A stretch of DNA of 64,000 nucleotides, from positions 62,493,197-62,557,196 of the forward strand of contig NC_054741.1 in NCBI RefSeq assembly GCF_018143015.1, given 5' to 3'. The notes under the pieces were generated by a model. The model saw nothing but the letters and a program-made list of their open reading frames with translations, searched no databases and had not been told where the DNA came from. The translations under genes were made by a program, and so were the position numbers. This document shows positions 16,905-61,400 of this stretch, one piece after another (position 1 is the stretch's first letter; every line of letters begins with the position of its first letter). This DNA comes from Lytechinus variegatus. Taxonomy: Eukaryota > Echinodermata > Echinoidea > Temnopleuroida > Toxopneustidae.

Positions 16905-18399
16905 CAGGGCTCGACACTAGCGGCGGTCCGACGGTCCCAGACCGGTAAAAATCGCCGTCGGGCCAGTAGATTTTAAAAAATAGGAAGATTTACTGGTCCG
17001 ACATGACCAGTAAAAAATATCATTGTCGGGCCAGTAATTTTTCAAAAAAACAGCAAGATTTTAAGGGTCCGACATGACCAGTAATAAAAACCATTGTTGG
17101 GCCAATAAACTTTTCCAGAAATGGTCAAATTCACTGCATGAACATTTCCCCCGATAAATTCTGCCATTCACACACAGAATACACACAGAATGAATCGCAC
17201 GTAAGTGTTACTAGAGTAGATCAGTGTACATGTAGCCAGCCACGGCCATACTGTACACAACCCACATGGTAAATTCTCTACTGGCTGCGCGAACGAAGCT
17301 TGGCTAAACTCTGGCAGAAATCTCTCACAGAACTGTCAAAATTCACGGTTCATACTCATGAAAGGCTCTTATAATGTCCATATTCCCTAAAAATTTGAGT
17401 AACTCTGTCATCTGTAAGCAGTAAAAGGGTAAATTTTCACTTCTGTTTGGTTCAAACAGATCGGGTTTCGGGTGGTATCGTCTGAATACATATTAGCCCC
17501 ACATATGCATTTATGTGTGTGTTGATACACTTGGTTTCTGACTTTCGTAGCCAAAAAAGAAACATAAATTATTTATGATAATAGTTTTAGCTTTCTTCCT
17601 CTGTTTCCTTCCTTCCTTCTTTCCTCCCTTCTTTCCTCCCTTCTTTCCTTCCTTCTTTCCTTCCTTCTTTCCTTCCTTCTTTCCTTCCTTCTTTCCTTCC
17701 TTCTTTCCTTCCTTCCTCCCTCCCTCCCTCCCTCCCTCCCTCCCTTCCCTCCTTCCTTCCCTCCCTCCCTTCCCTCCTTCCTTCCCTCCCTCCCTCCCTT
17801 CCATCCATCCTTTCTTCTTTCCTTCCTTCCTTCTTTCCTTCCTTCTTTCCTTTCTTTCTTACTTTCCTTCCTTCTTTCCTTCCTTCTTTCCTTCCATCCT
17901 TTCTTTCTTACTTTCCTTCCTTCACTCCTTCCTTCTTTCCTTACTTCTTTCCTTCCTTCCTTCCTTCCTTCCTTCCTTCCTTCCTTCCATCCTTTCTTTC
18001 TTTCTTTCTTTCTTTCTTACTTTCCTTCCTTCCTTCACTCCTTCCTTCCTTCTTTCCTTACTTCTTTCCTTCCTTCCTTCTTTCCTTCCTTCCATCCTTT
18101 CTTTCTGACTTTCCTTCCTTCCTTCTTTCCTTCCTTTCCCTCCTTCTTTCTTTCTTTCTTACTTTCTTCGTTTCTGTCTTGCTTTCTATTTGTCCTTCAT
18201 TCCTTCGTTTTACGGGGGGGGGGGGGGGGGTCACGAAAGGCTAGAAAAATAAACTTGCGCCTTTTTTTAATGTTTTCTTTATTTTTTGGGACCAGTAGAT
18301 TTTAGGTTCGGACCAGTAAAAATTTGAAAAACTGGGTATCTACTGGTCCGACATGAATAGGTTGGACCAGTAGAAAAAATGGGTTAGTGTGGAGCCCTG
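16905..18399. mobile_element. Nested hAT-like element carrying a polypyrimidine tract
   Basis: Termini CAGGGCTCGACACTA and TAGTGTGGAGCCCTG are inverted repeats. GTTAGTG flanks both sides (16,898-16,904 and 18,400-18,406). Subterminal blocks of the GACCAGTA(G/A)ATTTT type recur near both ends (16,965-17,110 and 18,290-18,375). The centre holds a long CTTCC-type microsatellite. No transposase is visible. Confidence 0.75.
17590..18170. repeat. Polypyrimidine microsatellite (CTTC/CTTT/CCCT)n, ~580 bp
   Basis: Almost uninterrupted pyrimidine strand built of CCTT, CTTT and CCCT units. It generates a 177-codon F/L/P/S frame on the plus strand and G/K/E/R frames on the minus strand, which are composition artefacts rather than proteins. 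Long homopurine-homopyrimidine tracts can adopt triplex structures. Confidence 0.95.
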
Positions 18400-48026: not shown

Positions 48027-48137
48027 TCAGAGTGTTTCTGAGAACGTCCTCTCTAATCTGTCTGCTATTGCAGGTCGTTTCAGAACAGTCCGTACGTGAG
48101 AGACCAACGCTTTCTCCTTCACACCCATGGATAAGAG
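48027..48137 (-). CDS. Clathrin-like last coding exon with early stop
   Basis: A pyrimidine-rich tract and CTTATATAG precede LLSMGVKEKALVSHVRTVLK, RPAIADRLERTFSETL and TGA at 48,029-48,027. It aligns with human [20 protein letters not shown] and NPDLALRMAVRNNLAG. No GT donor of useful quality precedes the stop, so termination here looks genuine. Confidence 0.85.
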   Translation of the reverse strand, partial: LLSMGVKEKALVSHVRTVLKRPAIADRLERTFSETL

Positions 48138-51100
48138 CTATATAAGGGGAAGAAAAAGATAAAAAGATAGGCATCTTGATGATCTGCTTACATTAGAAAC
48201 ATACGTGTAATAGCCAATATACTGTACATTCAATTCAAACACAAATGCTATGTACATTTTATTAAAATATATTCTGAGCAGCAAATATTGAAGCCAGCCA
48301 AAATCAATGTGAAAGTTTATTTTGGACATGTCAATATGTATGTCTCATTAATATCGAGTTTGCTCTTCTACAATATGACTCATTACCAAACAATTTGGGC
48401 CCATTTCAGTGGCTAGTAAGGAGGAAAGAAACAACTTCATATCTAAATTGAATTCAGGTAATCAAATACCAATAGGATATTTCCATTTAAATAATCACAG
48501 GACAACATGATTCTATAATGGGCAAAATATTCAATGCTCCCCACAAGATAAATCAACATTATACTGCTGTCAGGTATTGATAACACGTTGACAACCTCTT
48601 TGAAATGTGGAAATGACATGCTTGGCCTCTGAAGGGGAAACGCCTGTTTCTTAATAATGGTGCATAATATCATAGAACAGGATGCCAATTATTACCCACT
48701 TAAAAATAATTATCTATTAGACAATACTGTACCTCATAGATCAAATTGATGTATTTTTGAAAAGGTGTTTTTACATGGGCATACAGGCACTGAGAGATTG
48801 TTATGAAACCCTCATTTTAATCCAGTCATCTTGATCAGATGACATAATCGATTATAATGATATACGATTGGTTGCAAGTACTCGCACATGAATGGACATT
48901 TACTTGTTCTAACTTATAGATTGACTAGTATCTAGAAATGCATTTGAGATGAGGATGATTTATCAGATAACAAGGATCAACATCACTATCTCACAAAATT
49001 TATCAGACACACAATTTTGCTTGGGCATGAGAAAAATTACCGCCGAAATTCTCTGAACACCCTCAGCTATGCATCTGGCATGTTAGATCTGTTCAACAGG
49101 TACTTTGTGCTTGTTATTCTTACGAATGCCTGTGATGATGCGTATCATTTTTACACAAGAAACCAACCTACCCTGTCACATCGACTGAGTCTTAGGGATC
49201 CAATTGATCCCCAAGACTCTCTTTCCATCGGTGTCTAGCATGCAGTAATGGATCCTTAGCAAACCCTAATCCTATCCTAGCAATCTCTACTTACCAACCT
49301 ACCCTGCCACATCGACTGATTCCTAAGACTCTCTTTCCATCTGTGTCTTGTGTACAGTAAGGTATCCTTAACAAACCCTTATCAAACCCTTGCTATCTCT
49401 ACTAACTAACCTACATGTACCCTGCCACATTGACTGATTCCTAAGACTCTCTTTCCTTCTGTGTCTTGAGTACAGTAAGGGAACCTTAACAAACCCTTAT
49501 CCTACCCTAGCTATCTCTACTAACCAACCTACCCTGTCACATTGACTGATTCCTAAGTCTCTCTTTCCATCACTGTCTAGCATACAGTAAGGGATCCTTA
49601 ACAAATCATAATCCTCCCCTAGCTATCTCTACTAACCAACCTACCCTGTCACATCGACTGATTCCTAAGTCTCTCTTTCCATCACTGTCTAGCATACAGT
49701 AAGGGATCCTTAACAAATCATAATCCTACCCTTGCTATCTCTACTAACCAACCTACCCTGTCACAATGACTGATTCTTAAGACTCTCTTACAATCAGTGT
49801 CTCGAGTACAGTAAGGGAACCTTATCAAACCCTAATCCTTCCTTAGCCATCTCTATAACCAACCTACCCTGCCACATCGACTGATTCCTAAGACTCTCTT
49901 CCCATCGGTGTCTGGCATGCAGGTAAAGACGGTGAGATGTGATGCTCTACAGCTGCTGAGGAATGTACCTGTCTCAAGGTCACACAGCTTCAACCGGCCC
50001 ATCTTTGTTAGGATGTAGACAAGACCATGTGATGAACTCACCTAAGGGATGCAATCACACAAAATAAAGTGTGTTAGTTACTGTGTGTAATAATAATAAT
50101 CTCTTTTTTTTATATAGCGCATTTCAGACCTGAAAGGACTCTCAATGCACTTTACAGAAATAAAATTATGTACTATAAATTAGAACAGTGGAAATAACTT
50201 AATATTACACTTAATTAATTACTTAATATGACAAAAACAACAACAGTAATTAGTTAAATATGGCTGAAGTACAAGGAATAATCTGAATGAATTCCTCATT
50301 AAAGAGATATCTCTTAATTGGGTTTTAAAAAGTCCAGGATTATTTTGTGATCAGAGTTTTTTTCTAGGGAGAGATTTCCAAAGAGTGGGGCCACTGTAAG
50401 GTGAAGGACGTCGCCATGGGTCTTAGTTCGTTGTCTTGGTGCTTGAAGGAGTAGTTGAGTTGATGATCTTAGTGTCCTTGAGTGGGTGTATGGACAAATG
50501 AGTGCAGATATGTATTGAGGGGCAAGCCCATGGACAGCATTAAATGGTATTAGAAGGACTTTGAAGCAAATTCATGATTTGATGGGTAGCCAGTGAAGTA
50601 CTTTGAGAATGGGTAAGATATGGTTGTGTTTCATGGACGTAGAGACAAGTCTTGCAGCTGAATTCTAAAACACTGAGTATTCTTAAAATAATAATAGTAA
50701 TATAGAATTTATATAGCGCAAGTATCCACATTGTTAGGTACTCAAGGCGCTCCTATATTACCCCGGCTATGCTAGTCTACCGATTCCGGTGCTCACAGCT
50801 TTTGGAGGAATTACTTCCTGCTGGTAGTACCCATTTACCTCACCTGGGTGGAGTGCAACACAATGTGGGTAAATTTCTTGCTGAAGGAAAACATGCCATG
50901 GCTGGGAATCAAACCCACATCCCTCAGATTGAATGACGAGGGTCTTAACCACAAGACCACGATGCCCCCATCGGGATGGAGAGCCATGAAGAGTAGAGCT
51001 TTTCATGAAACAAATATCAAGTGATTTTCACTGACTATAATTATAAGCTACAACATATCCTTGCACCTGACTGGCAGAAAGCATATTAGTAAGTGAAAAC

Positions 51101-54100
51101 CAGTGACATTTCATGAAACATTTGTAAAAAAAAAATAATAATTACCTGAACTGAGACCGGGAAGTCGTATCTCTCCTCATCATCAAAGTTGACCTGTTCT
51201 GAATGATTGGTCAGGGAACAGTTACCATCTAAGTGAGGACCCAGCTCAATGATGTGTAGCTAGTATAAAGAACATCAACACAAACTAAATATCACGTTAT
51301 ATGTTTACAAAGTGAGGACTCATTAAGAGGGCACTCCAGAATAGTGTGATGAAAGTTTAACATAGGACATCAACTACACCATTTTCATAAGAATATAATC
51401 CAAGTAAAAATAATGGCTGTACAGAATGCAGGTATCAAACTTGAGATATGCTCAGGCCATTTAGGTTTTACTCATTACACAACATGGGCTTGCTGCATAA
51501 AATCTTATACTTAAAAAAAGTTCTTCTTAGCACAATGGTTTCCTCACTCCTGGGGAGCATTTCATTAATATTTTCGACCGACAAGTTGTCAGACCTGACA
51601 ACTTTCCTTGATTTTGATTGGCTGAGAAGCATTGTTACTATGGTAACTGTCGGATAAAACAGGATTGTCGGAAAAAAACGTCCGACAAGTCCTTTCATGA
51701 AACGCCCCCCTGGTTTCATGCAACAGGGTCCTGGATGGAATTTCACAAATAAAGAATATATATTTTTTGCAAATGGAGTTGTCGTGACTGTGATACCAGG
51801 AATCGAAACGAAAAACCCCACTTCAGGAGTCTCTTGAATATGAAACAGTTTAACGACTCCTTAAATAAAATATAAGTTACAATGCACCCTTGTGCACCCT
51901 TTGCTTTTCACTTTCAATAATTCTTTTTTGTTATTATCAACATAGGAAAAATTGATTTTATTGCTTGTATTTTCACTAACTTTTGAGGTGTTGTACAACA
52001 TTTAAAAGCGAATATTCTTATTCGTGCAATGGTGCAAAATTTTGCACCATCGCACTCATGCCTATTCGCAATTTGTATACTATTGGCACAACAACAATCC
52101 CAATTTCTTCTAGCCACGATAGTGAAAATCAAAGGCGGAAAAGACAGCGAACTCCAGCCCGATCAACTCCCACGCAGTTACTAACAGAAAAATTTTGCGG
52201 AAAAATAATGTTTTGACGATTTGACCCATCTAGTAGTGTGATGAGTTTGAAAGTGTCAATAAATTTTAGCATGGTATATTAACTGGAGGAGCCTAATTGC
52301 ATATCTATACATTGCAATAGAGTACCAAAGTGTGACATCATCAATTTCTACTTTTTGCATATCAGCGTTTAGGACACCATATTTTTGTAGAGCATGATAA
52401 AAATCCGCCCCCAAAACCCAAATTTGGTGGGAACTGGTCCATGGGGCCTCAAGATATGACCTCATGAATACATAATTAGCCCCATTGAAGTCAATGTATT
52501 ATTGGCCCGGTTCCTAATACTTAGAACCAGGAAAATAATACATTGACTTCAATGGGGGCTAATTATGTATTCATGAGGTCATATCTTGGAGCCCCATGGA
52601 CCAATTCCCATCAAATTTTGGTAGTGGGGTTTTTCATCATGCTCTACCAAAATATGCTATCAAAAACGCTGAAATTATGCTTAAAAGGTTTCTTTGTGAC
52701 GTCATCAATTCGCTACTCAATAGTCCCCTGTTGTCATATCCACTACACCCTGTCATTTCTATGAGCAGCCGAAAGTACATATCAGGAAATAGGCACACTT
52801 CAAAATACCAATGCTGTTGAAGTTCATATACACCATACCTTCCCTTGCAGGCCTGCCTGCCTATTTACAATGATAAGGACGGAATTGATACTCTTGTTGT
52901 CGCTGCGGCGGTAGGAGGCAAAGTTGATGGCTTGAGCATCGATGCACTGGCTTCTGTCTACGGTGGCCGAATAGATCTGGACGACACCCGACACCGAGTT
53001 CGAGTCACCATCCTGCAAAATACAAACAAAAAGATGTATTAGATTACAGGTCGCAGTCAAACAAGCTTTGGAACTCCCTGCCGCCTCCATTGGATGCTTT
53101 CACGCCAGCAAAATCCCTAACAGAGGAGTGTTTCATAAAGCATCTTGTCAGTGATTTTCACCGTAAAATTTGCTCTGAGCCAATCAGATGAAAGGATTTC
53201 AGTAGCTTATAACAATAATCGATGAAAATCACTAACCATTTGTTCCATGAAATTCTCCTCAGATTCCCGGTCGTTTGCTTGTGTGAAAGCAAAGTATTTG
53301 AATATCCATGAAGAGAAATCATTTTAGATTTTTTTTTTGGTGAAGAGTTTTGTAGTGTAAAAGTAAATTATGATAAGTTTCTAGGTAATGCAAGAGGAGT
53401 GTGCATCATTTGAAAAAATAAATCTGAGAGTCTTGTAAACTAATAAATATGTGAACATTAACTGGTTCTGGAACAACTGAGTAAATGCACAAAAGAATTC
53501 ATTAGATACATATACTAGTATTTTGGAACTCACTGATGTTTATCTGGTTAAAGTAAATTATGATAGATTTCTAGGTAATACAAGAATAACGTGCATCATT
53601 TGCAAACAGAAATCTGAGGGTCTAGTTGTAGGCTAATAAATACGTAAACTCTATCTGGTTCTGGAAGAACTGAGTAGATCTGTGAAATAAATCGATAGAT
53701 ACATGTACTTGAACAATTCCTTGTAACTCACTGATATTTCTGTGATCTAACGGTGTACATGTAAATATGTCAAGAGGAATAGAAATAAGGTCTGATACTA
53801 ACCTCATAATCTTTATAGAGACCTAGTACAGCAAACCATCTAAATGAAGGATCTGCCTTGTAACCTACAATCTGACAAAAGTTAAGACGTCCATGACGGG
53901 GAAAAGCCTTCATTGGACATGAAAATCCTGTATAAATGAACAATTCAAAACATAGTTATGATATTACAGTATGGCAATGATCTATGACATAGTACATTAG
54001 GCCTATAGAATGTACATTACAGGTAGTAACATTTTATATTTGGAGAAGATCAATAGCAAAGGACAATTTTTTCTCCCAAGAATATATATTTCATAGAATA

Positions 54101-57100
54101 CTAAATAACCAAACATGAATACAAAATAATAATAAAAACATGATAAAATAGTGCAATATTAATTCACAAAGAGATGATAGAGAAATTTACATGAGAATCC
54201 ACCTGAAAATGATATCAAGTTCAAAATGAAGTCTTATCTGGCATTACTAGCAGATGGGGATGTGGGGGCGGGGAGGGGGCTCTAAAAAATATGTGTTTTT
54301 CATTGCATGGAGACCATTATTATAAAGAAATCCAAGTAGAAAGGACAATTTGCTTCCTACAAACTGATTAATTAGAGTACTTATCAAATGAAAAAAACCA
54401 AATAATAATAAAGAAAGTACTCTTTTACATTACGTAAATAACAAAATCTATATTGAATGGATGATCTAGGCCTACACTTTATACAAAAAGGTGAAAGAAT
54501 GTACAGAGAAATAAACATTTCCTTCCCATGAAATCTTGTACTGGTGCCAAAAGAAAATAAAATAACATTAAACACAGTTTGATTTTTTGGTCTTGTATAA
54601 ACTCATGCTTTTAAGAACAAGTCCACTCCAACAAAGAGTTGATTTGAATAAAAAGAGGAAAATCCAACAAGCAAAACTCTCAAAATAGTGAGTAAGGGAC
54701 ATCATTGATTCTCGCATTTGCATGTGACTAAAATGTGAATGTAACTGTTTTGTGAAAAATAAGTGAAACTTCAAAAATGTCATTACTTTCTTATTTAACA
54801 TGAAATTTCGATGAAATTTTCAGCATTATTCTTGTCCGATTTTTCTCTATTGATTTAAATCAACATTTTTCTGAAGTGGACTTGACTTTTAAGTGTGTTA
54901 CTATTGATTTAAATCAACATTTTTCTGAGGTGGACTTGACTTTTAAGTGTGTTACTGTTACAGTACCTAGTGGATTAAAACAAAAACAACAACAAAAGGT
55001 GACCTACAATGTAATTTACTGAAATCAATGTTTATGTACACGTACATGTAGGCCTACACATTATACTTTCAAAATGCAAGGAATTCAAATGTACCTGCAT
55101 GTACATGAACTTGTACACGTATCTTCATTCTATAGTTTTCCTTGCCATGGCAAGTCATACTCATTTAGTTTCATATTATCAGTAAATGATATCAGTGAGC
55201 AAGTATCATTTTCATTTTTGCCCAGTATATGTAGTTTATACTCCCCTGAATTTCAAGAAAATGAATATTGTCCTTTCCCCGAGTTTTCACGAAACAAGTT
55301 TCTATTTCCTGTTTAAAGGTTTAAAAGATATATATATTTTTGTATGTTTTTTAAGGTTTGAGATTGTATGAAGTGGATATGTAGAGCATATTTTCTTCAT
55401 GTACATGTACTTCCTCATTTCCTTACTTTATATCGCACTTACACTTTCACTCTGAAGTTTTAGTGTAACTGGAAATTGAAAGTTATATTACCACCCAACC
55501 CCCCAAAAAATGTTTTTCACAATATTCGAATAACACATTTTGAACAATTTTTTATTATTTAAAGTGCAAAAATGTAAAAACAAGTGGAATGCCTCTGGCC
55601 GTCTCACCTGCATCACGCGGTTCAATATAGCAGCAGTGCTGACTTTGAATACTACTCTAACTCGCACAGGATGTTCAGTGATACATGGTTACTCTTATGT
55701 CCACTTTTTATGAACTAGACCAATAAACTTACAGAGATATGATGGTTATTCAACAAAAAACCCCAACATGGCCAAAGTTCATTGACCTTATATGACCTTT
55801 GACCTTGATCATGTGACCTGAAACTCGAACAGGATGTTCAGAGATACTTGATTACTCTTATGTACAAGTTTCATGAATCAGATCCATAAACTTTCAAAGT
55901 TATGATGGTAATTCAACAGATACACCCAATTCGGCCAAAGTTCATTGACCTTTGACCTTGGTCGTGTGACCTGAAACGCGCACAGGATGTTCAGTGATAC
56001 TTGATTACTCTAATGTCCAAGTTTAATGAACTAGACCAATAAACTTTCAAAGTTATGATGGTAATTCAACAGATACCCCGATTCGGCCAAAGTTCATTGA
56101 CCCTAAATGACCTTTGACCTTAATCATGAGACCTGAAACTTGCACAAAATTTTCAGTGATGCTTGATTACTATTATGTCCAAGTTTCATGAATCAGATCC
56201 ATAAACTTTCAAAGTTATGATGGGAATTCAACAGATATCCCCAATTCGGCCAAAGTTCATTGACCCTAAATGACCTTTGACCTTGGTCATGTGACGTGAA
56301 ACTCATGCAGGATGTTCAGTGATACTTGATTAACCTTATGTCCAAGTTTCATGAACTAGGTCCATATATTTTCTAAGTTATGATGACATTTCAAAAACTT
56401 AACCTCAGGTTAAGATTTCGATGTTGATTCCTCCAACATGGTCTAAGTTCATTGACCCTAAATGACCTTTGACCTTGGTCATGTGACATGAAACTCTGAT
56501 AGGATGTTCAGTAATACTTGATTAACCTTATGGCCAAGTTTTATTAACTAGGTCCGTATACTTTCTAAGTTATGACATCATTTCAAAAACTTAACCTCAG
56601 GTTATTTGATGTTGACGCCGCCGCCGCCGTCGGAAAAGCGGCGCCTATAGTCTCACTTTGCTTTGCAGGTGAGACAAAAACTCAAATTCATATAGTGAAA
56701 TGCGGCATATTCAAAGACCAAAGCAAATCTTCAAAGAAAAAAAAAGAAGAAACATCCCTATAATAAATAATAAAATAATCATTCAGACCCTAGAAGTCCT
56801 CTGACCTACCCTACCCCCTTAAAAGTAAGCAGGTATTTTATTTCATCCATCGATTCACATATAATTTATAAGAAAATTCCAGTTCCTGCCAGATGTAGGC
56901 AGATACATGTAAATCTGTTATTGGTTATGATATTGCCTGTTTATGGAGGTAAGATCATTTGCACCAAAAAACATGCTCACATGACACTCACGAGGTAGGT
57001 AGTCACTCACTGATAACAATTTGAATCACAGTCAACATCCAGGACTAAAATAGAAAACTGGATGTCGAGTTTGATACTTCTCTGAAGAACATATGCCAAG

Positions 57101-60100
57101 AATAATCAACAAGTAAAAAGTAACAAGTGATTAAAATACCATCTATACCCTTTTTACACAGGATTTTCTTAACCCCGGACTATCGCTAACCCCGTACTAT
57201 CCTTAACCCCGTACTATTTTTTTTCCTTTTCACACATGCCAAATTGTTATTGCTAACCCCGGATAAGGAATGCTTGCTTTTTACACACAAAACTCACTAA
57301 CCCCGGACTAGTGGTTTTTGTCGATCATTGTTGTACAAGTACTTCACTCGTACACTTTTTACACACGCTAAAATTTCCTTAACCCCGTACTATAGGTGGG
57401 GCTAAATTGCTATTTAGCCCCACCTATAGTACGGGGTTAAGCTTAGCCCACTTTCGTTTTACACTAGCGATCTTAACCCCGTACTATCGCTCTTAGCACC
57501 GCAATTGCTGGGATAACCCTGCTTTTTTGCAGGGCCAAATAATCCCGTACTATAGGTGGGGTTAGCCCACTTTGCAAAAAATGCTGTGTAAAAAGAAAGT
57601 GGGCTAAGCTTAACCCCGTAATATAGGTGGGGCTAAATGGCAATTTAGCCCCACCTATAGTACGGGGTTAAGGAAATTTTAGCCTGTGTAAAAAGGGTAA
57701 AATGTACTGGATTAGTAAACATACATGTACCAGGGCATTTACATCCATTTAAATGTACAGTGTACATTTACACAGTAGGCCTACATGTTATACTCAACTC
57801 AATGATGACTCCTCTAAACGCTCCACAGGTATTTATTACCCTCGTAATCCGATGCTGGCTTGCCTACACACAATGTACAATAAGACACCGTTCTCACTAT
57901 ATTCCTAAAACTAGTTTAACGCGTAGTGAGAACGGTCAAAGCGATCATCTTCCAAACCGGTTTAGATAACCATCTCGCAAAGTAGTTTTTTGCCTCGCCC
58001 TCGGTAAATTGGTTTTAGTGCAAGTGGGGACACAATCGTTTTTCGTGAAGTGATCTTCGCACATTTTGAGTGCACTACTCCACATGACAGATACATGTAT
58101 AGAGTGCCTATGCTGTGGTTTCGAATTTCGCGCAAAACGTGTCACCCTACTGAGAGTGTTTCCATAGCAACAAGATCGCTTTACGTGAAGTGATCTTCCA
58201 AGCTCAAAAGCTTGAATATGACATTGGCTTTCACATCCCACAAGTTATCCTTTATTCTGGGCAGAGAGTGGCTTTGTATTGATTGATGCATTGTCACTGG
58301 AAGCCAGTGCTATGGTGGGTCTTGAACAGAGGCCCTTTAATTACAACACCATTTTTCTAGTTACACTTTAAAAGGATGTGGGTATCATTAAAGAAAAAGA
58401 TACAAATTCATACATAGTCATTGAACAGAGATCAATCGCCATCTTTTCGTCCATTTTTGTTAACGATCAGTTTCGACTTTTGAATAGAGGCCCTTTAATT
58501 ACAACACAAAAGTCAGAACCATTTTTCGATTAAACAGATGTAGGTATCATTAAAGAATAAGAGATCAAGTCATACATATTCATTGAACAGAGATTAATTG
58601 CCATCTTTTCTTCCATTTTTGTTAACAATCAGTTTCGAGTTTTGAACAGAGGCCCTTTAATTATAACACAAAACTCAGAACCATTTTTTTTAGTTACACT
58701 TTAAAAGGAGGTATTGAGAATAAGATATCAATTCATCTACACTGTACCTGTACAATAGTCATTTAACAGAGATTAGTCCCCTTCTTTCCTTCAATTTTTG
58801 TTAACAATCATTTTCAAGAAATGTCTATGGTCTGCAAAATGCTCTATTGGCCCAGCAATATAGGTTTGACAGCACCTACTAGGTGGTTTCAGACCGCCTC
58901 GAAGTTCGCCAGTTCCAGGTATTCTCTGATCGGGAAATTTACCCCGATCAGAAAATACCAGGTATTTTGGTAATGTGAAAGCAAACTACGCGTAATTTCC
59001 CCGAAAGAAAATACCCGCTAAATAGTAGGTACTTGGCGAAATTACGAGAACTTTCGTGGGGATTTTTCCAAGGTCGCAGGTATTTTGGCGATGTGAAAGC
59101 AAATCACGGGAGCTTTTAGCCCAGCGTGTCGGTGGGTGCGGCGGCGTGGGTGGCTGCTGGGCTAGTGATTTTGAATCTCGCGCCTTGCCTGCTTATCAGA
59201 CCATACTGCGCATGCCCGAACGATGTGTTTCGGGGCGGTGTGAATGCAGGAATAATTAACGGGTATTTTTTAGCCTTAAAAAGTTCTCGTAATTTAACGG
59301 GGATTCTTGTGATCGAGGCGGTTTGAAACCACCTACTGACTGTTTCTCTCATAAAAAAAATCTCTTGGAGTCATGTTGATCCCCAATGCTAATTGCTGGG
59401 ATGGAGGGCAGTGCGGTAGGCTGATGTGAAAAAAATTTAAGTCAAAGGAACTGCCATCATGAGGCCTAATCTCCATCAGCTTGAGTTTTGAATCATCCCA
59501 CTATTTCTAATTTTGGCATATATATACCATTACATCAGAACTATCTCAATTAAGACACAATTAGTGGGTCATTTTGTTGCCAGGCAGGCATTAGGGTGTT
59601 AACTCTCACGCACACTGGGTGTTGCACATTTCGTGTAGCACGCACTTCCCTATAACGGCTGCAGAGGGAATTGAAAATCGTCATGCATGTACATAACCTA
59701 CAATGTACCGCCCCCTGCTAGCCAGGTGATAATTTGCTAGGATAATCAGAAGAATGCAATCCCGCAATTATTTGCAAAAGAATTAACAAACTAAATTAAA
59801 CAGCAAAGATGCACTCTGATTTTGGCAAAAAATAATTCACGTTTGGTACAATACCATCACACACTTCTGGAGCCCAAAGTACAAGTATGCTCTCCATTGC
59901 AAGGTCACTTTTAACGATCAAGAAAGAATTCTCCCCCTACGGCTGATGGAAAGAGGTTTTAGTGTAAAAATCAAAGTTTCTTCAGGGAGTGGCTGAGTGC
60001 TGCTTAGAAGTCCATCAATTGTGTTCTCAGATTGCGATGCACTAAGACCGAAAAGACCAATGGGCATAAATATGAATTGATAGCACTTCCATTAACCAGG

Positions 60101-61400
60101 CGCGACCATGGGGTTTCGAAAAGCACCCTAAACAAGCATTTTCCATGTTCTGAAAATGAACCCTGAAACAAGTATTGGCACGTGAAGCCCTACCCTAAAC
60201 AGGTATTGGAAACAAAACGGTACCTTTGACAAGTATTCCCTGAATTGACCACCTACAGACAAGTACAGTGATATTTTAATTGTTATATCACAGACGTCAG
60301 CATTACCTTTACCTACATTGAGTTTAGTACCGCCCCACCTCCCACCTCACTCAATTCAGACACTACACACATAGTGTTGGGGCAAAAAATACCTTTATAA
60401 AGCATTTTAGTCTTTTGATAATGATATCCTCACAAATTTGACCGTTCACACATAGCTTTCCTAGCGAAATATATCCCTTTTTTCATTATTTAGCGTTTTT
60501 TACACCCTTATTACATTAAGTATGTAACATGCCAAATCAATATCCTTTTTACGTGTTACATTTTTCTTTAGTAGTGCCTGGTATCTACTCATCAATGAAA
60601 GTGCCCCCCCCCCCCCCCCGTTCGATGGTGGCTCTTTATTTTTTCAATAAGTTTTAGCCACAACTTAGATGGGCAGAACTCTTTAAGACTGAGTAAAGTT
60701 AGGCTGATAGAGACCCACCTACATGTATATTGTAGTATGACAAAAAGTGATGTGTCAGACACTAAATTATATGTTGTCTTTCCTCAGAATCTTTTAGGAT
60801 ACAAGTGCCTGGAAAAATAATCCAATATTCAAAGTAATGTATTATATGTAAACATCTGCCTATGTTTTTCACATTGTATTTCGGGGGGGGGGGGTCACTC
60901 AATTATTTATAAAAACCACCTATATACAGTATAAAAACAATAAAAACACACAGTATAAAAATACCAGTCTCTAAAGCATGCATCCCAATCAGCAAAAATT
61001 GCCTATTTAAATTATTACCTTGGTCGTGTGTGTGTAAGCAACTGAGCTAAGTGAATGCCCCAAAGTATTGGATAAAAAAGTCCATCATTTCTGATAAAAA
61101 TTCATTAGGGATGTATCCATAAATAATGTTGTCAGAGAAACAAACTGTCTCCATGATGGGGCTATTCCTTCTCAATTGATTTTTTTTCAAAGATAATTCT
61201 ACATAATTTTTCGACATTCATGTTTGCTTTTTTAGTGACCTTACCTAAAGGAGAGAGGTCCCAGTGGTAGATGAACTTTGACCCGACGATGCCGATGACG
61301 TCATCGTTGAGCCAGCTCCAATATTGCACTTCGTCTTTCATGGTGCAGCGGTACAGCTGCTTCTCCGCTACGATGTTGAAGATTTGAAAATGTTTACCAG
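48027..61400 (-). CDS. Diverged clathrin heavy chain terminal-domain (beta-propeller only) protein, 5' incomplete
   Basis: Six minus-strand exons (61400-61245, 53927-53803, 53012-52839, 51259-51146, 50041-49868, 48137-48027) join in frame to about 284 residues. They align along clathrin heavy chain from human residue ~84 to ~359, the seven-bladed N-terminal propeller that binds clathrin-box adaptors. Landmarks are GKHFQIFNI, IYHWDL, CQIVGY, VVQIYSATVDR, LHIIELG, DFPVSVQ, DLETGT and GISRCGRLLS. Similarity is low for so conserved a protein: by hand, 21 of 58 residues match human in the fifth exon listed. The frame stops after ADRLERTFSETL, where the linker zig-zag would begin, so no leg, light-chain or trimerisation region follows. 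Splice sites are all GT-AG, phases match, and no frame is broken, which argues against a pseudogene. The first exon(s) lie beyond 61,400 or outside the window. It is a paralogue, not the housekeeping clathrin. Confidence 0.85.
48138..49160. other. Intron sequence of the clathrin-like gene
   Basis: AT-rich intron lying between the last exon and the tandem array. No repeat boundary or coding signal was recognised; the 73-codon frame at 49,017-49,238 runs into the array. Confidence 0.5.
49161..49867 (-). repeat. Tandem array (~112 bp period) of an exon end plus 5' splice site
   Basis: AACCAACCTACCCTG or a close variant starts copies near 49,161, 49,292, 49,404, 49,522, 49,634, 49,746 and 49,857; the last is the true exon 49,868-50,041 boundary. 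Spacing is 131, 112, 118, 112, 112 and 111. On the minus strand each unit contains ~55 bases matching the exon end (coding CM.D.DGKR..GISRC.R in the best copies), then AGG|GTAGGT and ~55 bases of intron. Most copies keep an open frame in the exon-derived part. Confidence 0.9.
49868..50041 (-). CDS. Clathrin-propeller exon with DLETGT; its end is amplified downstream
   Basis: CATCCCTTAG and AGG|GTAGGT flank 58 codons: VSSSHGLVYILTKMGRLKL, CDLETGTFLSSCRASHLTVF, TCMPDTDGKRVLGISRCGR. It aligns without gaps to the same number of human residues starting ISEKHDVVFLITKYG. The last ~55 bases and the donor are repeated six more times in the tandem array at 49,161-49,867. Confidence 0.92.
50085..50670 (-). 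pseudogene. LINE 3' end: C-terminal reverse transcriptase-tail fragment (L2/CR1-like)
   Basis: The minus-strand translation from 50,670 gives NSAARLVS.SMKHNHILPIL, KVLHWLPIKS, then a stop, FKVLLIPFNAVHGLAPQYI and LIC.YTHSRTLRSS. These are the typical conserved tail of non-LTR elements of the L2/CR1/Jockey superfamily. Internal stops and frame slips make it inactive. The 3' UTR ends GAAATGCGCTATATAAAAAA with a (TAA)n tail near 50,090. Confidence 0.8.
50690..50978 (-). mobile_element. tRNA-derived SINE with LINE-like tail
   Basis: On the minus strand the head GGGGGCATCGTGGTC has an A-box-like TGGTCTTGTGG (50,948-50,960 region) and a B-box-like GGTTTGATTCCC (50,904-50,915). The body contains CACCCAGGTGAGGTAAATGG, and the tail is TGCGCTATATAAATTC with (TAT)n. 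It lies directly upstream of the LINE fragment in the same orientation, in an intron of the clathrin-like gene. RNA polymerase III promotes such heads. Confidence 0.88.
51146..51259 (-). CDS. Clathrin-propeller exon LHIIELG to DFPVSVQ
   Basis: TATACTAG and CAG|GTAATT flank 38 codons beginning LHIIELGPHLDGN and ending ERYDFPVSVQ. These align with human KLHIIEVGTPPTGN and QNDFPVAMQ. Phase 0 at both ends. Confidence 0.9.
51552..51710. mobile_element. MITE of the TCTGACAAGTTGT family
   Basis: TGGGGAGCATTTCATTAATA at the left and TTTCATGAAACGCCCCCC at the right are inverted ends. The interior matches the 35.9-kb copy, including TGATTTTGATTGGCTGAGAA and GTTACTATGGTAACTGTCGG. Confidence 0.88.
51985..52080. 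repeat. Palindrome centred on GGTGCAAAATTTTGCACC
   Basis: An 18-base perfect palindrome GGTGCAAAATTTTGCACC (about 52,030-52,047) is extended by GCGAATA upstream and TATTCGC downstream. This forms a small foldback in the intron of the clathrin-like gene. Confidence 0.8.
52325..52712. repeat. Foldback element with ~180-bp arms
   Basis: Left arm about 52,325-52,503 and right arm about 52,534-52,712, with a 30-base loop. The inner half is nearly perfect (GAATACATAATTAGCCCC against its inverse); the outer parts are diverged (TAGAGCATGA..AAAATCC against its inverse). It ends about 127 bases downstream of the exon at 52,839. Confidence 0.85.
52839..53012 (-). CDS. Clathrin-propeller exon with VVQIYSATVDR
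   Basis: TATTTTGCAG and AAG|GTATGG flank exactly 58 codons. VVQIYSATVDRSQCIDAQA aligns with human [20 protein letters not shown], and the end NRQAGLQGK with RGQAGGK. The GC-rich coding stretch contrasts with its AT-rich surroundings. Confidence 0.88.
53110..53262. repeat. Short foldback near a clathrin-like exon
   Basis: GAGTGTTTCATAAAGCATC on the left and TGTTCCATGAAATTCTCC on the right, with GTGATTTTCACC and its inverse inside, indicate a small MITE just outside the exon starting at 53,012. Confidence 0.55.
53803..53927 (-). CDS. Clathrin-propeller exon with CQIVGYKAD
   Basis: The acceptor TTTATACAG and donor GAG|GTTAGT flank 125 bases coding GFSCPMKAFPRHGRLNF, CQIVGYKADPSFRWFAVLG, LYKDYE. 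It aligns with human clathrin [20 protein letters not shown] onwards; Gln152 is kept and Ile154 is Val. The one-base phase from the previous exon makes Gly, as expected. Confidence 0.88.
53928..55579. other. Intron sequence of the clathrin-like gene
   Basis: AT-rich sequence with no exon recognised. It contains the repeat at 54,610-54,949. Short frames such as 55,074-55,316 show no known domain. Confidence 0.45.
54610..54949. mobile_element. MITE-like element with duplicated right end
   Basis: The left end AAGAACAAGTCCACTCCAAC is inversely matched by GAAGTGGACTTGACTTTTAA. The terminal ~50 bases (CTATTGATTTAAATCAACAT to GTGTGTTACT) are present twice in tandem at 54,846-54,902 and 54,902-54,957. 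Confidence 0.7.
55580..56680 (+). repeat. DR1-bearing interspersed repeat, full-length copy
   Basis: It runs from ACAAGTGGAATGCCTCTGG to GCAGGTGAGACAAAAA. Perfect DR1 sites (minus-strand reading) lie at 55,793, 55,946, 56,108, 56,271 and 56,463. It carries one more internal unit than the 39.2-kb copy, so unit number varies. It lies in the 7.3-kb intron of the clathrin-like gene. Confidence 0.92.
57148..57696. mobile_element. MITE with TA target site and repeated inner inverted repeats
   Basis: TA, CCCTTTTTACACAGG at the left and CCTGTGTAAAAAGGG, TA at the right give clean 15-bp inverted ends. The inside is built of CTTAACCCCGTACTAT units in both orientations, including TTAGCCCCACCTATAGTAC near 57,411 and 57,645 with adjacent inverses, so several alternative hairpins are possible. 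No protein. Confidence 0.85.
57880..58215. repeat. Repeat with recurring GTGAAGTGATCTTC motif
   Basis: CACCGTTCTCACTA and its inverse TAGTGAGAACGGT face each other at 57,886-57,935. The motif CGTGAAGTGATCTTC occurs at about 58,044 and 58,182, and a related GCGATCATCTTCC at 57,941. Probably a decayed element. Confidence 0.45.
58322..58815. repeat. Three-copy ~160-bp tandem repeat
   Basis: TTGAACAGAGGCCCTTTAAT (or TTGAATAGAGG...) starts units near 58,322, 58,481 and 58,643. Each continues with TTAC..TTTAAA, then a CATTGAACAGAGAT box and TTTTTGTTAAC(A/G)ATCAGTTT. The third unit ends near 58,815. Confidence 0.85.
58881..59334. mobile_element. MITE with 3-bp TSD (PIF/Harbinger-like)
   Basis: ACT flanks both sides (58,878-58,880 and 59,335-59,337). 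Ends AGGTGGTTTCAGACCGCCTC and GAGGCGGTTTGAAACCACCT are inverted with one or two mismatches. A 3-bp duplication suggests PIF/Harbinger-type mobilisation. Frames at 59,056-59,352 lie entirely inside it. Confidence 0.82.
59340..60080. other. Intron sequence of the clathrin-like gene
   Basis: No recognised exon or element boundary. Unremarkable sequence with one CpG-containing patch near 59,600-59,660. Confidence 0.4.
60083..60620. mobile_element. Diverged copy of the 13.8-kb long-TIR MITE
   Basis: AGCACTTCCATTAACCAGGC and GCGACCATGGGGTTTCGAAA at the left match the right end of the 13,782-14,332 element inversely. The right end shows TGGTATCTACTCATCAATGA and a poly-C run at 60,604-60,619. Ends are worn. 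Confidence 0.7.
60621..61244. other. Intron sequence with a G run
   Basis: Poly-G at 60,883-60,893 and short AT-rich direct repeats (CAGTATAAAAA at 60,928 and 60,951). No exon was recognised before the one starting at 61,245. Confidence 0.4.
61245..61400 (-). CDS. Clathrin-propeller exon, blades 1-2 with clathrin-box pocket
   Basis: The acceptor CGTTCAACAG and donor TTTAG|GTAAGG flank 156 bases. They code (x)GKHFQIFNIVAEKQLYRC, TMKDEVQYWSWL, NDDVIGIVGSKFIYHWDLSPL. Matching human 85-131, Gln89 and Phe91 of the clathrin-box site are kept, but Thr87 is His, Lys96 is Glu and Lys98 is Gln. Phase 1 at both ends. Confidence 0.88.

Follow-up and report, generated by a model that had tools for sequence, protein, structure and literature searches.

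A clathrin heavy chain paralogue with a propeller and no detectable leg in Lytechinus variegatus

In a stretch of 64,000 nucleotides of Lytechinus variegatus DNA (C2:62493197-62557196, hereafter the window), we found six exons of a gene that encodes a diverged counterpart of the N-terminal propeller of clathrin heavy chain (CHC) and then ends. This propeller gene is a DNA-level paralogue of CHC rather than a piece of the normal gene, and it is very probably a leg-less paralogue that is functional now or was so until recently. Our tentative reading is that of an old duplicate whose free propeller would act as a soluble peptide-binding head with an altered preference, tuning adaptors.

Structure of the propeller gene

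By searching the window with human CHC (tblastn, listing matches up to E 50), we found that CHC residues 84 to ~359 are encoded in order by six minus-strand exons, from 61400 to 48027, followed by a stop. The matches proceed along CHC as residues 84-132 (E 8e-8), 134-170 (3e-4), 175-235 (0.075), 228-266 (0.009), 266-324 (4e-7) and 324-351, the last of these, in exon F, being weak by itself (E 5.5 taken alone) yet in register with the other exons. No match to the first 83 residues of CHC was listed inside the window. With the DNA beyond the window added, so that 184 kb of the contig were read around and including it (104 kb + 80 kb), a seventh exon was found 13.3 kb past the window end. Its first codon corresponds to the one that opens exon 2 of urchin CHC, and both exons end in a phase-1 donor. 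The exons found are listed here, A to F in window coordinates.

Seventh exon, C2:62570477-62570696, minus strand: counterpart of CHC residues 15-83
Exon A, 61245..61400, minus strand: CHC ~84-133; phase-1 acceptor and phase-1 donor GTAAGG; tblastn E 8e-8; second of the exons found
Exon B, 53803..53927, minus strand: CHC ~133-173; tblastn E 3e-4 and splice sites
Exon C, 52839..53012, minus strand: CHC ~174-227; GK at its end as in the CHC exon; tblastn and splice sites
Exon D, 51146..51259, minus strand: CHC ~228-265; 114 nt, the length of the urchin CHC exon; tblastn and splice sites
Exon E, 49868..50041, minus strand: CHC ~266-323; 174 nt, the length of the urchin CHC exon; tblastn E 4e-7; 3' end and donor within a tandem array
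Exon F, 48027..48137, minus strand: CHC ~324-359, that is the propeller end and first linker residues; stop codon at 48029-48027

First, all introns have AG acceptors and GT donors with compatible phases, and the seven joined exons give 357 open codons and a stop codon. The chance of such a frame at the local stop frequency (6.1%, three-frame) is 1.6e-10. Second, the joined seven-exon protein matched the clathrin terminal domain of the PDB (phmmer E=3.4e-61, query residues 2-349), so that it belongs to the seven-bladed propellers by homology to a solved domain, with the first 14 residues missing. Third, exon GC is 49.4%, against 35-40% in 4-kb windows across the locus. The gene thus spans 29.5 kb or more and has no fewer than seven exons. 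Borne out are the six intact, phase-matched, GT-AG-bounded exons collinear with CHC that a sequence-only reading of the window had described; its placing of the gene start at 61400 is not, as the seventh exon lies outside the window and the start exon is still missing.

Compared with the matching part of urchin CHC, the product has a pI of 9.35 (versus 6.82) and 13 cysteines (versus 5). Relative to CHC there are loop insertions in blade one, where the seventh exon encodes a basic KKKKR stretch, and at the end of exon B. The KKKKR stretch resembles a nuclear-import signal and might be read as a candidate for one.

At its C-terminal end, the product runs ~29 residues beyond residue 330, covering the counterpart of the Pfam Clathrin-link (331-354 in urchin CHC), and finishes about where Clathrin_H_link begins (356 in urchin CHC). 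The earlier statement that it stops exactly at the linker start therefore has to be amended. Since this end (~residue 360) nearly coincides with that of the crystallised CHC construct, residues 1-363 in PMC5182127, an independent fold of the product is plausible.

Repeats lie within the locus. A 112-bp tandem array of 6.4 copies (Tandem Repeats Finder; 49205..49922, minus strand) begins within exon E and extends into the intron; it duplicates the last codons and the 5' splice site of the exon into the intron, so that several decoy donors follow the true one. Between exons D and E, the intron holds a stretch (50740-50985, minus strand) that by eye resembles a tRNA-derived short interspersed element, and further intronic tandem arrays occupy 54847-58688, with units of 54, 163/315, 192, 17 and 162 bp.

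A single-copy paralogue of the clathrin heavy chain

The genome searched comprises 869,567,369 bases in 33 contigs. The same chromosome carries the normal, full-length CHC at a distance of 1.6 Mb; it starts at C2:60871404 on the plus strand, and tblastn covers its residues 1 to 1671. Searching the genome with the six joined window exons returned 13 matches, which fall at the propeller locus (three of them tandem-array copies) or at the normal CHC, with a single weak exception (E 0.8) elsewhere on C2. The propeller gene is therefore present in a single copy.

The first seven exons of the normal CHC measure 42/208/269/162/114/174/198 nt, and those of the propeller gene ?/220/(156+125)/174/114/174/111 nt including the stop. 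Introns after CHC residues 83 (phase 1), 227, 265 and 323 match exactly between the two genes, and the intron near residue 173 falls within a loop insertion. As exons A and B together correspond to one 269-nt exon of urchin CHC, the intron between them is extra. A retrocopy or processed pseudogene is excluded by the presence of at least six introns, four of them exactly at CHC places and a fifth in the loop insertion; the shared intron places indicate a paralogue that arose at the DNA level.

No detectable leg or hub

We then looked at the remainder of CHC. First, in a genome search for the leg repeat PF00637, 14 candidates were scored and 11 matched, of which 11/11 lie at the normal CHC. Second, tblastn with CHC gave no leg match exceeding 24.6 bits, either within the window or in 40 kb further downstream, a search that takes in 88 kb past the stop; with the same query, scores of 28.9-48.5 bits were reached by six of the seven known propeller-gene exons and 22.7 by the remaining one. 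Third, over the window and the adjoining 40 kb, tblastn matches to the trimerisation hub and the light-chain site stayed at chance level. A full linker followed by a clathrin-repeat leg was thus not found, the frame stopping at 48027 and PF00637 matching at the normal gene only. Nor is this a full-length paralogue of the CHC22 type, given that no leg was detected and that identity to human CHC17 is 122/344. Without leg or hub, the formation of triskelia is impossible.

The view of the locus as a free-standing, fast-diverging gene for the CHC terminal domain is upheld by the separate complete CHC, by the confinement of leg repeats to it and by the lack of a detected leg. An origin as part of a full CHC gene cut by an assembly break was not borne out, with the complete CHC lying 1.6 Mb away and no N base in the 184 kb of contig read around and including the window.

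Divergence, selection and age

The propeller gene is identical to urchin CHC at 121/344 residues and to human CHC at 122/344, in agreement with the earlier estimate of about a third, while urchin and human CHC share 326/389. Exon by exon, identity to urchin CHC ranges from 11/36 to 16/38. At the nucleotide level, identity to urchin CHC is 0.45, 0.625 and 0.326 at first, second and third codon positions, with dN at 0.71 and dS saturated. Second positions being better kept than third (62.5% vs 32.6%), selection has acted on the protein. We simulated neutral decay over 400 runs, counting substitutions that cause a stop or the loss of a splice base (indels not simulated), and found that the median neutral copy fails after 1% substitution and that none survives beyond 7.1%. 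The propeller gene is 65% diverged in protein and still intact in the exons found, where the marks of an unprocessed pseudogene (stops, frameshifts, broken splice sites) are absent from all seven. Together, these data indicate that the protein was under selection during almost the whole history of the gene and that any death must be recent.

To place the duplication, a quartet tree was built from the propeller gene, urchin CHC, human CHC17 and yeast Chc1. The best tree puts the propeller gene outside urchin and human (RELL 0.777); the other two are not rejected (AU 0.27 and 0.164), and long-branch attraction would yield the preferred topology too. At 11 urchin-only changes, the propeller gene has the urchin state once and the older state at 3; at 14 human-only changes, it shares 3 with human and retains the older state at 5. 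These counts are suggestive, without being proof, of an old split. At the 159 sites that are alike in urchin and human but different in yeast, the animal state (44) is commoner than the yeast state (20), so that the propeller gene is nearer to animal CHC than to yeast.

Peptide-binding grooves

Pocket contacts were taken from PMC5182127 and PMC11543927. The three anchoring glutamines (Q89, Q152 and Q192) are all kept. Some clathrin-box and W-box positions (V50, I80, I93, F260 and others) are our own assignments, in part carried over from yeast numbering. In the W box, F27, Q152, V177, F260 and V262 are identical to human, with I154V and I170L as changes. In the arrestin box, 8/16 contacts are identical (W164, Y184, S185, S191, Q192, I194, H229 and I231). 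The clathrin box keeps V50, Q89, F91 and I93, with I80L and T87H changed, and has lost all four of the basic residues facing the acidic end of the bound motif (R63T, R64W, K96E and K98Q). Most of the Royle box belongs to the missing exon; of the remainder, R297 is retained, with N296C and V327M as changes.

Leaving aside the clathrin-box basics, 17/29 pocket residues are identical to human, compared with 111/316 in the domain as a whole (P=0.006). Conservation is better in the W-box and arrestin-box pockets than in the clathrin box, which seems to fit better with another, or a relaxed, peptide preference. The groove sites retain the anchoring glutamines and most hydrophobic contacts, so short hydrophobic motifs could still be bound; with the basic clathrin-box rim gone, binding of classical L-phi-x-phi-[DE] motifs would be weaker, and partners of the W-box or arrestin-box kind, or non-acidic ones, may be preferred. 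Mutating the yeast clathrin box at 63, 87, 89 and 98 weakens Ent1 binding about seven-fold, from 138 to 968 uM, as reported in PMC11543927. Three of these four positions differ in the propeller gene and Q89 is kept, so that the comparison is partial.

Weighing the explanations

Homology, exon structure, copy number, past selection and residue states are observed here, and from there on we infer the fold, binding and cellular role of the product. In the explanation that we tentatively favour, an old CHC duplicate would have kept its introns and would lack the leg, the hub and the light-chain region. What survives would be a free seven-bladed propeller of ~370 residues, soluble and non-polymerising, that would grip short hydrophobic motifs in the disordered tails of adaptors. 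Without a leg, adaptors would be bound but not joined into a coat, and their tails would be tuned or scaffolded. Binding of peptides through the W-box and arrestin-box grooves is a fair guess on the residues kept, somewhat short of even. That the net effect would be that of an adaptor decoy we regard as doubtful.

Several observations count against this explanation. Half of the 16 arrestin-box contacts are changed (L183I, R188V, V190R, F216L, F218I, V233L, K245N and A247S). When the four basics are included, 17/33 pocket residues are identical (P=0.042), and no single pocket reaches significance (W box P 0.054, arrestin box 0.156, clathrin-box hydrophobic residues 0.117). At positions common to urchin, human and yeast, the pockets (12/19 kept) do no better than the domain (62/114), which means that ligand binding is not separately proven. 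The Pfam propeller repeat scores E 0.32 in the product, below cut-off, and its single genome match, from 13 candidates, is the normal CHC. The start-codon exon, of 14 residues in CHC, was not found in 26.5 kb upstream of the seventh exon by a scan for a 14-codon exon resembling the first one of urchin CHC (best score 14, against 9-22 in 20 shuffles). Finally, maize has truncated CHC genes that lack cDNA, and these were considered probable pseudogenes in PMC9263852.

The propeller might instead have been co-opted for a ligand unrelated to clathrin adaptors, such as an acidic or a nuclear partner. The shift in pI, the added cysteines, the KKKKR loop and the loss of 4/4 clathrin-box basics all point in that direction, but the retention of the 3/3 anchoring glutamines and 17/29 pocket residues speaks against it, the pockets being kept at a level above the domain average and not above that of other universally conserved positions. 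We consider this co-option possible and rather unlikely.

A recently dead gene, in which a long-selected propeller gene lost its first exon or its expression and is now drifting, is less likely still. The missing first exon and the maize precedent would both agree with it, and the 2.2 kb that follow the stop contain no AATAAA or ATTAAA. In another 40 kb on the upstream side, where the search was by tblastn alone, no match exceeded 23.9 bits, and the frame of the seventh exon has no ATG from the upstream stop to the acceptor; this implies a further exon, an internal translation start or a gene broken at its 5' end. However, a 14-residue exon as diverged as the rest would not exceed chance score anyway and would be lost among chance matches, and 357 codons without stop, frameshift or broken splice site mean, at the speed at which neutral copies fail, that any death is recent.

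The sequence-only reading had proposed a soluble competitor for clathrin-box adaptors, which would bind CHC ligands without polymerising. Part of this idea stands, namely the hydrophobic pocket with Q89 (V50, Q89, F91 and I93) and the lack of a detected leg, but the changes R63T, R64W, K96E, K98Q and T87H in the clathrin box and, with the proviso that Q89 is kept here, the weakened yeast mutant stand against it. The loss of all four basics makes a plain competitor improbable, and a soluble propeller of altered preference would be the likelier version. Splicing past exon F into a longer clathrin or other gene is highly improbable: the locus exceeds 29 kb and its end is defined by one stop only, but PF00637 matches at the normal CHC only, tblastn finds no leg in 88 kb past the stop, and the 184 kb read contain no N, with the limit that these searches could miss a leg of greater divergence than the propeller and that no search was made for a non-clathrin domain.

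Other features of the window and genome

Positions 1-48000 hold no evident conventional protein-coding gene: none of the 42 stop-to-stop frames of at least 95 amino acids in the whole window was recognised by eye as that of a known gene, a judgement made without family searches that genes with short exons would escape. At 17511-18305, long open frames on both strands seem to stem from a simple tandem repeat (PSFL and ERKEGRKE runs) and not from genes. Rfam and tRNA scans of the window gave zero matches. Elsewhere in the assembly, C33:5866-7206 carries mitochondrial COX1; its matched part contains 12 in-frame TGA codons and has two AAA at the MNN site. This site is invariant, and AAA is read as Asn in the echinoderm mitochondrial code. 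The gene fits that code, with AAA at conserved Asn sites and TGA read through, and its protein resembles COX1 of sea urchins, in line with an echinoderm source.

Relation to known clathrin genes and significance

The propeller gene resembles CHC17 (CLTC, of which the urchin CHC is the orthologue) in propeller order, intron places, the three groove glutamines and the first linker residues. It differs in its 35% identity, in lacking H-link, leg, hub and light-chain part, in the lost basic rim of the clathrin box, in several small loop insertions, in one extra intron and in its pI (9.35 versus 6.82). Like CHC22 (CLTCL1), it is a second CHC gene born of duplication, but it is leg-less, 35% identical and echinoderm. 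CLHC1 (clathrin heavy chain linker domain-containing protein 1) has a CHC-derived part outside a clathrin chain, with an H-link; it is not known to carry a propeller and would be the reverse of the propeller gene. The maize genes ZmCHC3a, 3b, 4a and 5b offer a likeness as incomplete CHC genes beside intact ones (PMC9263852). Among the matches listed from the open-access literature, no title or abstract opening described a stand-alone clathrin terminal-domain gene; the gene may already bear a "clathrin heavy chain-like" label in some annotation.

A head without coat building probably serves some other adaptor-binding job. A bolder version, which we regard as conceivable and not likely, would make it a clathrin-derived reader of adaptor tails that predates the echinoderm-vertebrate split, kept in echinoderms and lost in vertebrates, with a peptide code of its own. 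A selected gene with the adaptor-binding head alone would be a natural experiment in which peptide reading is split from coat building, making it testable which grooves of the head matter without a coat and whether cells tune adaptors by a free clathrin head.

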